From: Amycolatopsis sacchari
GTDB lineage: Bacteria; Actinomycetota; Actinomycetes; Mycobacteriales; Pseudonocardiaceae
DNA length: 64,000 bases
Direction: 5' to 3'
Assembly (NCBI RefSeq): GCF_900114035.1
Contig: NZ_FORP01000017.1
Span: 1-64,000 of the forward strand
Below the pieces are notes generated by a model, which was not told the origin of the DNA, searched no databases, and was given only the letters and a program-made list of their open reading frames with translations. Both the position numbers and the translations under genes were made by a program. Shown piece by piece: positions 16,111 to 19,188 of the stretch (positions within the stretch are counted from its first letter, which is position 1; each line of letters starts with the position of its first letter).

Positions 16111-19100
16111 ATGCCGCGGGTGCGTTTTGTTGCCGACCTGCACATCCACTCGAAGTACTCCCGCGCGTGCAGCCGCGACTGCGACCTCGAACACCTGACG
16201 TGGTGGGCGCGGCGCAAGGGCATCGCACTCGTCGGCACGGGTGACTTCACCCATCCCGCCTGGTTCGAGCACCTGCGGGAGAACCTCGAACCGGCCGAGC
16301 CGGGGCTGTTCCGGCTGCGTGCGGACCTCGACGCGGACATCCGCCGCCGGCTGCCACCGACGTGCGCGGCGGCGGATGTCCGGTTCATGCTCTCGGTCGA
16401 GATCTCCACGATCTACAAACGGGACGAGCGCACCCGCAAGGTGCACCACCTGGTCTACGTGCCGGACTTCGAGGCGGCCGGGAACTTCAACCGCAAGCTC
16501 GGCCGCATCGGCAACCTCGGCTCCGACGGGCGCCCGATCCTCGGGCTGGATTCCCGCGACCTGCTGGAGATCACGCTCGAAAGCGGCGCCGGTTCCTACC
16601 TCGTGCCCGCGCACGTGTGGACCCCGTGGTTCGCCGTGCTGGGCTCGAAATCCGGCTTCGACGCGATCGAGGACTGCTACGCCGATCTCGCCGGACACGT
16701 CTTCGCGCTGGAGACCGGTCTGTCCAGCGATCCCGAGATGAACTGGCGCGTTTCGGGCCTCGACAAGTACCGGCTGGTCAGCAATTCCGACGCGCATTCC
16801 CCGCCGATGCTCGGCCGTGAGGCGACGCTGTTCGACACCGAGCTCGACTACTTCGCGGTGAAACGCGCGCTGGAAACCGGGAACGGGCACGCGGGCTCGC
16901 TGGAGTTCTTCCCCGAGGAGGGGAAGTACCACGTGGACGGGCACCGCAAGTGCGGGGTGCGGATGGAGCCGGAGGAGACCCGCGCACACGGCGGCCGGTG
17001 CCCGGAGTGCGGGAAAGCGCTTACCGTCGGCGTCCTCAGTCGCGTCGAGGACCTCGCCGACCGGCCCGCACCCGTGCGGCCGCCAGGCGCGGCCGCCTTC
17101 GAAAACCTCGTGCCGCTGCCGGAGATCATGAGCGAGATCCTCGGCGTGGGACCGAAGAGCAAGAAGGTGCTCGGCGAGATCGACAAGCTCACGGCCACCT
17201 TCGGACCGGAGCTGACGATCCTGCGGGACGTGCCGGCCGAGGACCTCGAAACGCGGTCGCCGCTGCTGGGGGAGGCGGTGCGCCGGCTGCGGCGTGGCGA
17301 GGTGATCCGCGAGGCCGGGTACGACGGCGAGTACGGCGTGATCCGGCTGTTCGACCCGGCGGAGATCAAGCGCTCGACGACGATCGGCCTGTTCGACGAC
17401 GGGCTGTTCGCCACGCCCGAGGAACCCGCCAAGCCCGCGCGGAAACCGGTGGCGGCGCCGGTGAGCGCGCCGGAAGCCCGGCCCGCCGCGCCGGACAACG
17501 GCGGGTTGCTCGACGGCCTCGACCCCGACCAGCGCGCCGCCGCGGGCAGCGGCGGGGGACCGCTGCTGATCATCGCGGGCCCGGGCACCGGCAAGACGCG
17601 GACGCTGACGCACCGGCTGGCGCACCTGGTGTCCGAACGCGACGTCCCGCCGGAACAGTGCCTCGCGATCACGTTCACCCGCCGGGCCGCGGAAGAGATG
17701 GCCGAGCGGCTCGCCGCGCTCGTGCCGGACCACGCGCCGCGCCTGACCATCGCCACGTTCCACTCGCTCGGCGTGCGGATCCTGCGGGAGCAGCACGACC
17801 GGGCGGGGCTGAGCGCGGACTTCGGCATCGCCGACCACGCCCGGCAGCTCGCCGTGCTCGCCGAGGTCACCGGCGACGAGGCCGGTGCGCGACGCGCGCT
17901 CGCGGAGCTGTCCCGCACCCGCCGCACGGGAACGCCGGACGAACTCGCCGAGCGGTACACGAAAGCCTTGCGGCAGCAGGATCTCGTGGACTTCGACGAC
18001 CTCGTCGCGCTGCCGGTCGCCCTGCTGGAGGCCGATCCGGCGCTCGTCACCGCCTACCGCGAGCGCTTCCGGTGGATCGCCGTCGACGAGTACCAGGACG
18101 TGGATGAACAGCAGTACCGGCTGCTGCGGCTGCTCGCGCCGCCGGACGGGAACCTGACCGCGATCGGCGACCCGGACCAGGCGATCTACCGGTTCCGCGG
18201 CGCCGATGTCGGGTTCTTCCTGCGGTTCCGGCAGGACTTCGCGTCGGCGCGCACGGTCCAGCTGACGCGCAACTACCGGTCCAACCCGCACATCCTCGGC
18301 ACGGCGTTGAAGGCGATCGAGCCGGGCACGCTCGTGCCGGGGCGGGAGCTGCGGCCGATGGGCGAACACGGCGACGCGCTCGTGGGCGTGCACCACGCCG
18401 CGGACGAGCGCGCGGAGGGCGCGTTCGTCGCCCGCACGATCGACCAGCTGCTCGGCGGCGCGTCGTTCCACTCGCTCGACAGCGGGCGCGTCGTCGGCGA
18501 CGGCAGTCAGGGGCTCGACTTCTCGGACTTCGCGGTGCTGTACCGGACGGACCGGCAGGCGCGGGCGGTGGTGGAGGCGCTCACGCAGGCCGGGCTGCCG
18601 TTCCAGAAGCGCTCCCACGACCGGCTCGCGGAACGGCCGGGCGTCGAGGAGATCCTCGCCGAACTCGCGTACGCGGGCGGTACCGTGCTGGACCGGGTGC
18701 GGCGCGCCGCGGACGTCGTGCTCGGGCGGGGCGCGGAGGAGGCCGAGGTGCACACCGCGGTCGACCTGCTGACCCCGCTGGCGCTGGAGTGCGGGGACGA
18801 CCTCGCGCGGTTCCGGACGGAGCTGTCGCTGGGCGTCGAGGTGGACACGTGGGACCCGCGGGCGGACCGCGTGTCGCTGCTGACCCTGCACGCGGCCAAG
18901 GGGCTGGAGTTCCCGGTCGTGTTCGTCGTCGGCTGCGAGGACGGGCTGCTGCCGTTGCGGTGGCCGGGAACCGAGCCGGCGGAGGAGGAACTGGCGGAGG
19001 AGCGGCGGCTGCTGTTCGTCGGGATCACGCGGGCGCAGCGGCACCTCTACCTCAGCCACGCCGCGTCGCGGGCCGGGCGCCCGGCCGCCGTGTCCCGGTT

Positions 19101-19188
19101 CTTCGCCGACCTCGGGGACGGCGTGCAGCGGATCGGGGACGTGGTGCCGAAGGCCCGGCCACGCGAGACGCAGCTGCGGCTGCTCTAG
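16111..19188 (+). CDS. fusion of endonuclease-Q-like PHP nuclease and UvrD-type helicase
   Basis: 1025 aa. Residues ~1-430 match the EndoQ/TIGR00375 group. The PHP metal motifs are HIH at 11-13, GTGDFTHP, LSVEIS, VPAHVWTPW and SNSDAHSPP; a zinc-finger-like region has Cys281, Cys297 and Cys300; the next block (LPEIMSEILGVGPKSKKV) is a helix-hairpin-helix-like segment. Residues ~430-470 are an Ala/Pro linker. Residues ~470-1025 are an SF1A helicase: Walker A GPGTGKT (~490-496), ITFTRRAAEEM, DEYQD (659-663), GDPDQAIYRFRG, QLTRNYRS, LLTLHAAKGLEF, VGITRAQ. EndoQ nicks DNA 5' to deaminated bases (uracil, hypoxanthine), so this protein may nick and then unwind such sites; that coupling is inference. 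A GTG at 16120 (VRFVADLHIHS) is an alternative start. Confidence 0.88.
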   Translation: MPRVRFVADLHIHSKYSRACSRDCDLEHLTWWARRKGIALVGTGDFTHPAWFEHLRENLEPAEPGLFRLRADLDADIRRRLPPTCAAADVRFMLSVEISTIYKRDERTRKVHHLVYVPDFEAAGNFNRKLGRIGNLGSDGRPILGLDSRDLLEITLESGAGSYLVPAHVWTPWFAVLGSKSGFDAIEDCYADLAGHVFALETGLSSDPEMNWRVSGLDKYRLVSNSDAHSPPMLGREATLFDTELDYFAVKRALETGNGHAGSLEFFPEEGKYHVDGHRKCGVRMEPEETRAHGGRCPECGKALTVGVLSRVEDLADRPAPVRPPGAAAFENLVPLPEIMSEILGVGPKSKKVLGEIDKLTATFGPELTILRDVPAEDLETRSPLLGEAVRRLRRGEVIREAGYDGEYGVIRLFDPAEIKRSTTIGLFDDGLFATPEEPAKPARKPVAAPVSAPEARPAAPDNGGLLDGLDPDQRAAAGSGGGPLLIIAGPGTGKTRTLTHRLAHLVSERDVPPEQCLAITFTRRAAEEMAERLAALVPDHAPRLTIATFHSLGVRILREQHDRAGLSADFGIADHARQLAVLAEVTGDEAGARRALAELSRTRRTGTPDELAERYTKALRQQDLVDFDDLVALPVALLEADPALVTAYRERFRWIAVDEYQDVDEQQYRLLRLLAPPDGNLTAIGDPDQAIYRFRGADVGFFLRFRQDFASARTVQLTRNYRSNPHILGTALKAIEPGTLVPGRELRPMGEHGDALVGVHHAADERAEGAFVARTIDQLLGGASFHSLDSGRVVGDGSQGLDFSDFAVLYRTDRQARAVVEALTQAGLPFQKRSHDRLAERPGVEEILAELAYAGGTVLDRVRRAADVVLGRGAEEAEVHTAVDLLTPLALECGDDLARFRTELSLGVEVDTWDPRADRVSLLTLHAAKGLEFPVVFVVGCEDGLLPLRWPGTEPAEEELAEERRLLFVGITRAQRHLYLSHAASRAGRPAAVSRFFADLGDGVQRIGDVVPKARPRETQLRLL

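Follow-up and report, generated by a model that had tools for sequence, protein, structure and literature searches.

Why should an endonuclease predicted to nick deaminated DNA be joined in one reading frame to a UvrD-type helicase? The question is raised by a gene at positions 16111-19188 (plus strand) of the first 64,000 nucleotides of the Amycolatopsis sacchari contig NZ_FORP01000017.1, the stretch analysed here and called the window. The gene is a single frame of 1025 codons with an ATG start and no internal stop, and in its product a full-length endonuclease Q (EndoQ) is tied, through a disordered linker rich in Ala and Pro, to an SF1A helicase of the PcrA/UvrD type. That this fusion gene is real was confirmed with other genomes. 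Each of the 19 fused loci read elsewhere (L029-L047) retains the joined frame, and all 54 carriers among 150 genomes searched in the window's family have frames of 991-1274 amino acids; helicase halves were read in the fetched loci and the other carriers were judged by frame length. A frame error, which an earlier note made from the DNA letters alone had named as a risk to its proposal of a fusion, and a chance fusion were both rejected on these grounds. No model spanning both halves was reported by Pfam or NCBIfam. We suggest that the protein is probably a clamp-tethered nick-and-unwind enzyme, acting in an alternative excision repair of deaminated bases and abasic (AP) sites.

The two halves of the fusion protein

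The N-terminal half is an EndoQ. A phmmer search of the PDB aligned residues 8-419 with PfuEndoQ over its whole length (3.7e-47); three EndoQ sequences were the sole hits with E ≤ 1e-3. In an AlphaFold2 model built from 43 sequences (mean predicted local distance difference test score (pLDDT) 84.4, predicted template modelling score (pTM) 0.57) two confident folds are separated by a disordered linker at 424-463. The first of these was identified by Foldseek as PfuEndoQ, with a TMt of 0.88-0.89 against 5zb8 and 7k30. Because the pTM is low, the relative placement of the two halves is not predicted. Another PHP enzyme was rejected as a candidate, since a profile search gave no other PHP protein within E ≤ 10; that profile contains PfuEndoQ, and the phmmer search of the PDB is the unbiased test. 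The earlier note had called the half EndoQ-like and had considered that it might align better to other PHP phosphoesterases; the sequence search, in which EndoQ was the one kind of PHP protein matched in the PDB, and the modelled fold both uphold its assignment. Pfam at 1e-3 reported no PHP family in this half, only a weak HMBD match. The NCBIfam model TIGR00375, a hypothetical equivalog, aligns over its positions 72-374, but the score of 154.7 bits lies under the cut-off of 326.6, and by the NCBI threshold the half is therefore not a member.

The catalytic residues are conserved. The metal ligands H11, H13, E97, H112, H168, D227 and H229 correspond to Pfu H8, H10, E76, H84, H139, D193 and H195, and the base-selecting positions G203 and S205 to Pfu G169 and S171, with the H139 equivalent also kept. 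All nine equivalents are present in the window's protein and in 40 of 40 fused proteins of the alignment; the metal ligands are thus intact, as the earlier note had judged. Roles of PfuEndoQ E76, H84, H139, G169 and S171 as ligands or in base selection are given in passages of PMC8307549. The conserved residues suggest that the EndoQ half would incise 5' of uracil, hypoxanthine, xanthine and AP sites. The ribbon formed by H278, C281, C297 and C300 may bind zinc. It is of the form HxxC/CxxC, whereas the PfuEndoQ site is CxxC/CxxC; the first cysteine is replaced by histidine in 40/40 fused and 81/81 other bacterial EndoQ sequences, that is, in all 121 aligned. The fusion protein thus shares with the known EndoQs (PfuEndoQ and TkoEndoQ, the Methanosarcina and Bacillus pumilus enzymes; PDB 5zb8, 7k30-7k33) its full-length homology, catalytic and base-selecting residues, zinc domain and, taken as a unit, a C-terminal clamp-type motif. 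It differs from them in the addition of a helicase of about 560 amino acids at the C-terminus and in the position of the clamp-type motif, which lies at the helicase end.

Residues 466-1000 match PcrA, Rep and UvrD (Pfam UvrD-helicase, 5.7e-69; NCBIfam TIGR01073, 1.2e-117), and Foldseek recognized the second modelled fold as UvrD (best TMt 0.73, Deinococcus UvrD). The sequences AGPGTGKT, VDEYQDVD, GDPDQAIYRFRGA, LTRNYRS, LLTLHAAKGLEF and ERRLLFVGITRAQ are what we take to be motifs I, II, III, IV, V and VI, respectively. Alignment with fused loci and paralogues indicates that the SF1A motifs Q and I-VI are all intact, as those that the earlier note could check had appeared to be. The same note had described a complete nuclease and a complete helicase in one frame. 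This holds for the EndoQ half, which is full-length, but not entirely for the helicase: from motif IVa to motif V, where subdomain 2B is located, it has 109 amino acids versus 168-218 in 13 of 14 aligned paralogues. In the fourteenth (L002), the genome's own second UvrD-like protein, this stretch measures 123 amino acids. Among the fusions measured it has 103-122 amino acids in the seven of the window's phylum and 40-188 in the 17 others, including L171 with 72, which is cut by its contig. The TIGR01073 score of 394.2 bits stays below the cut-off of 911.2, and the curated PcrA, UvrD and Rep equivalog cut-offs are not reached. Since a full-size 2B is missing, the helicase is filed here as a PcrA/UvrD-type motor and not as PcrA, UvrD or Rep. 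Fold and motifs are shared with those enzymes; the EndoQ-linked branch is set apart by the shortened 2B, a clamp-type tail in place of paralogue tails, and the N-terminal EndoQ. A nuclease and an SF1A motor in one chain are also found in the helicase-nuclease fusions AddAB, RecB and AdnAB, but there the nuclease domain is C-terminal and RecB-type, whereas here it is N-terminal and a PHP-type EndoQ.

Distribution and genetic states of the pair

The earlier note knew of no characterized actinobacterial example, and the two-domain search that it proposed indicates that the architecture is not a lone actinobacterial case. A species-genome scan gave at least 588 stretches, 582 of them encoding relatives, from which the best 80 were kept. 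Among these best 80 of 582, 65 encode EndoQ alone, nine are fused, five have a second SF1A frame on the locus and one is cut; in two of the five (L063, L068) the helicase lies at least 2.8 kb away, and these are counted as alone. The architecture was also found in Bacteroidota, Desulfobacterota, Chloroflexota, Clostridia, Fibrobacterota and Elusimicrobiota. In genome samples labelled by the phylum of the locus used as centre, matches occurred in 12/198 genomes around Bacteroidota (10 strong, all in frames of more than 1000 amino acids), 133/198 around Desulfobacterota (51 of the 133 in frames of at least 850), 5/201 around Chloroflexota (two fused) and 99/199 around Clostridia-type Bacillota (31 of them strong, with 22 of these in frames of 850 or more; the other 68 weak or distant). 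The searches together took in 1,410 genomes, a figure that counts some of them twice. When 20 stretches from these phyla were read, all 11 chosen for a long frame were fused, and the nine chosen for a short frame had a helicase next door in two cases and none in seven.

Of 396 genomes from the window's phylum, nine have a TIGR00375 match at E ≤ 0.001, and in no case does the score exceed the cut-off of that model. Five of the nine, the window included, have frames of more than 1000 amino acids, one (G424) has a standalone EndoQ of 499 amino acids, one (G177) a frame of 527, and two matches are weak. In the single standalone EndoQ of the phylum, L048 from G424, the DLHIH metal motif contains a gap (FD-YIHS), perhaps an assembly flaw. 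A match to the EndoQ half occurs in 54 of the 150 family genomes and, at genus level, in one of the seven genomes shown.

The pair occurs in several genetic states. It is fused in 24 rows of a helicase tree and 27 rows of an EndoQ tree. Two loci have adjacent genes, with the helicase ATG 2 nucleotides past the EndoQ stop in L077 (Thermodesulfovibrio) and the helicase start 58 nucleotides past it in L158. In the Clostridia-type loci L126 (6907-6909) and L162 (5447-5449, minus strand) the frame of EndoQ is split from that of the helicase by one in-frame TAG, which in L126 falls within the region of the helicase Q motif. L118 instead changes frame at an A-rich junction (near 1441-1504), with no ATG ahead of the Walker motif. 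A broken fusion, a sequence error or recoding would account for each of these three. In G886 and G857 the EndoQ stands alone, yet an unlinked tailed helicase is encoded that is 47% identical to the L158 partner. These fused, adjacent, frame-broken and unlinked pairs count in favour of a nick-and-unwind unit, and the functional coupling of nuclease and helicase that the earlier note had proposed gains support from the adjacent and unlinked partner genes and from the clamp-type motif that they share.

In the helicase tree 24 fused and five adjacent or frame-broken rows stand apart from 14 paralogues with a branch support of 69/74; with support at that level a single EndoQ-linked helicase lineage is favoured, not shown. 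This tree took in 7 of the 20 fused rows of the window's phylum and was made without the contig-cut fusions L101, L124 and L128 and the paralogue L197. In the EndoQ tree, which used 30 of 76 standalone rows and the same fraction of fused rows (7/20) from the window's phylum, all 27 fused rows fall in one 36-row clade (100/98) together with four adjacent or frame-broken and five standalone rows; only a slightly wider clade of 41 rows (98/93) takes in L077. An EndoQ clade of fused and adjacent or frame-broken rows only was rejected (approximately unbiased test, p 2e-55), because EndoQs without a neighbouring helicase are interspersed with these rows. Taken together, the trees would suit a partnership of long standing that was later split up or lost in places.

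Linker and clamp-type tails

The linker is predicted to be disordered (pLDDT < 50), and in 20 fused proteins the segment aligned with residues 428-468 is between 41 and 123 amino acids long. At its start lies TIGLF, of which L427 and F428 align with nearly invariant positions of standalone EndoQ C-termini. The leucine and phenylalanine on this EndoQ side are kept in 20/20 fusions of the window's phylum; the glutamine of the motif is present in one and gone in 19. An intact internal Q..[LIMV][FLI] was found in 13 of 40 fused proteins. A relict EndoQ tail at the linker start is what fusion of adjacent tailed genes, as in L077 and L158, would leave.

A second motif of this type ends the protein (Table 1). 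Counted as Q..[LIMV][FLI] in the last 12 amino acids, a clamp-type tail is present in 33 of 36 complete fused helicases (four of the 40 fusions are cut by contig ends and were left out), in 5/5 adjacent or frame-broken partners and 2/2 unlinked partners, in 59 of 76 standalone EndoQs, some of which are cut, and in 0/15 paralogous SF1A helicases. Shuffled tails would give 0.7, 0.09, 1.4 and 0.15 in the fused, adjacent or frame-broken, standalone EndoQ and paralogue groups, respectively. Among 11 other frames from the partner search the motif was found in none; two of these are cut pieces that apparently repeat L207 and L208. The motif may well bind the beta clamp. Passages of PMC4858679 report that archaeal EndoQ binds PCNA through a C-terminal PCNA-interacting peptide (PIP) box with a KD of 55 nM and is stimulated, and point out beta-clamp motifs at the C-terminus of bacterial EndoQ homologues; even before that, a connection between PCNA and the Pyrococcus abyssi homologue (COG1379) had been made in PMC3820547. 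The clamp-type tail on EndoQ-linked helicases is new here, and no description of it was found in the open-licence PubMed Central (PMC) literature.

Table 1. Positions of the fusion gene and its parts in the window
Feature	Position	Strand	Basis
EndoQ-UvrD fusion gene	16111..19188	+	ATG start, 1025 amino acids; orthologous frames elsewhere
EndoQ half, residues 1-425: PHP catalytic domain, Zn-binding domain, C-terminal helical part	16111..17385	+	PDB sequence match, residue alignment, model
Putative zinc ribbon H278-x2-C281 ... C297-x2-C300 (four ligands)	16942..17010	+	Alignment; Zn binding presumed
Relict of EndoQ's own C-terminal clamp motif in the linker, residues 424-428 TIGLF, no Gln	17380..17394	+	Alignment to standalone EndoQ C-termini
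Ala/Pro-rich flexible linker, residues ~424-463	17380..17499	+	pLDDT < 50
SF1A (PcrA/UvrD-type) helicase, residues 466-1000	17506..19110	+	Pfam, NCBIfam, alignment, model
Shortened 2B region between motifs IVa and V, residues 814-922	18550..18876	+	Alignment
C-terminal sliding-clamp-type motif QLRLL, residues 1021-1025	19171..19185	+	Motif count

Possible roles of the fusion

Homology, residue conservation, the fusion itself, partner linkage and the tail motif suggest a mechanism of four steps. The C-terminal QLxLL/F tail would bind the DNA polymerase beta clamp, as the motif and the archaeal EndoQ-PCNA precedent indicate. The EndoQ half would then flip out a uracil, hypoxanthine, xanthine or AP site and cut the first phosphodiester 5' of the lesion, leaving a 3'-OH, as has been established for other EndoQs. 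At the nick the SF1A motor, presumably with the 3'-to-5' polarity of its family, could load onto the intact strand and run downstream across the lesion, displacing the damaged strand as a 5' flap; meanwhile a polymerase held by the clamp would elongate the 3'-OH end. The flap might then be removed by a flap nuclease or a single-strand exonuclease, and the strand sealed by ligase. The family polarity fits the nick: with the cut lying 5' of the lesion, a motor that travels 3'-5' along the intact strand heads towards the damage. The legend of Fig. 10 in PMC4357722 includes a model in which incision by EndoQ and EndoV is followed by 'removal by helicase activity'; in other models drawn in PMC4357722 and PMC4858679, EndoQ is followed by polymerase strand displacement and Fen1.

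The pathway would run beside repair by uracil-DNA glycosylase (UDG) and AP endonuclease. The earlier note had offered a single-protein alternative to glycosylase repair, and as a replacement for glycosylases this was rejected: the window's own genome has five UDG-superfamily matches, and such matches occur in all 18 family carriers tested (one per genus, out of 54; 2-5 each) as well as in all 18 of the 96 non-carriers taken for comparison, with means of 3.4 versus 3.3 per genome. In other phyla 9 of 12 genomes with a fused, adjacent or frame-broken pair have a match. The best reading is that the fusion adds to UDG/AP-endonuclease repair.

A wider claim, to which we give slightly better than even chances, is that in several phyla EndoQ and a specialized SF1A lineage make up a dedicated alternative excision machine, a clamp-bound unit of fused, adjacent or unlinked genes in which the helicase supplies what the EndoQ pathway has lacked, a second step. 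A partner helicase that is linked covalently and genomically and bears a clamp-type tail makes this step directly testable with one recombinant protein, and the recurrence of the pair in several phyla may point to a repair route for deaminated DNA. No description of an EndoQ-UvrD fusion was found in the open-licence PMC literature; an earlier depiction could lie in Fig. 9A of PMC4357722, where bacterial EndoQ architectures are drawn.

Several observations weigh against a clamp-tethered nick-and-unwind enzyme. The gene is patchy in both family and genus, and an SF1A helicase is missing from the locus in 65 of the best 80 EndoQs. UDG-superfamily matches accompany it in every family carrier tested. 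The complete fusions L047, L107 and L170 lack the tail motif as defined, and the window's protein ends in QLRLL where ...LF is usual. In G906, G825 and G1261, genomes of the fused clade that keep EndoQ, there is no tailed helicase among matches at 1e-20, so the helicase appears dispensable in places. The 3'-5' polarity is assumed from the family, as is helicase activity with less than a full 2B. Among the six neighbouring frames scanned there is no repair gene, and comparison of the window and three loci with the other 20 revealed no conserved neighbours of the fusion gene. The SOS box GAAC-N4-GTTC is absent from the 400 bp before the DLHIH codons in 21 loci. No biochemistry on any EndoQ-helicase fusion was found in the open-licence PMC literature.

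Three other roles can be considered. The two halves could serve the same pathway at different nicks, the fusion merely fixing their stoichiometry or letting them share one clamp tail. A linker that is long, variable and disordered would allow this, as would adjacent and unlinked partners in some genomes, but a fused state in at least six phyla, and in 54/54 family carriers by frame length, makes such simple co-expression rather unlikely. We also doubt that the protein is mainly a clamp-bound accessory motor in replication or repair, with an EndoQ half that mainly senses lesions or only rarely makes a nick at a stalled fork. The Rep/PcrA-type fold, the position of the clamp-type tail on the helicase end and the loss of the EndoQ-side glutamine in 19/20 fusions of the phylum would suit such a motor. 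Retention of all examined catalytic EndoQ residues in 40/40 fused proteins argues against it, as do the five clade genomes with no helicase beside EndoQ, in three of which no tailed one was found (the converse, a tailed helicase without EndoQ, fell outside the search).

Equally improbable is a defence enzyme, whose EndoQ half would nick uracil-containing or modified phage or plasmid DNA for degradation or displacement driven by the helicase, in the manner of the nuclease-helicase system Gabija. Patchy presence is in line with defence, PADLOC GajB helicase models match the helicase half (best 4.6e-78), and passages of PMC8307549 and PMC10380557 mention antiviral defence for Bacillus EndoQ. However, the helicase scores 394 bits with PcrA versus 261 bits with GajB (models from different libraries), the clamp-type tail points to host replication or repair, and the GajA OLD-family partner that lies beside the helicase in Gabija (GajAB) has no counterpart among the six neighbouring frames. 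No conserved neighbours were found, nor any relative in viral contigs or plasmid record with more than 80% coverage, and phage or plasmid cargo was rejected on the last two counts.

The six frames mentioned encode TetR, SnoaL-like, NmrA-like and MFS proteins and two luciferase-like proteins. A repair operon was rejected, as none of the frames listed for the window and three other loci, the fusion gene aside, matched more than two of the other 20 loci at >90 bits. SOS control was likewise rejected on the missing GAAC-N4-GTTC; a looser GAA-N6-TTC box is present in 3 of the 21 loci in the same 400 bp. At 12-24 kb of the window no RNA elements were detected at gathering scores.

Some minor observations concern EndoQ copies elsewhere and the strand opposite the fusion gene. 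G010 has, next to its full gene, a further EndoQ match that is partial, covering residues 5-114 with 80% identity (positions 70186-70512 of contig C31). The Clostridia-type genome G1151 has two strong matches about 10 kb apart on opposite strands of contig C112 (41575-42861 and 52243-53505), one in a frame of 1216 amino acids and the other in a frame of 463 amino acids with a TAG inside the match. Antisense to the fusion gene, an open frame of 1169 amino acids spans 15550-19059 (minus strand); it looks like a high-GC shadow frame, because its relatives in other loci track the sense gene. The two neighbouring luciferase-like (PF00296) genes occupy 19185-20994, and the first is convergent with the fusion gene, their stop codons overlapping.

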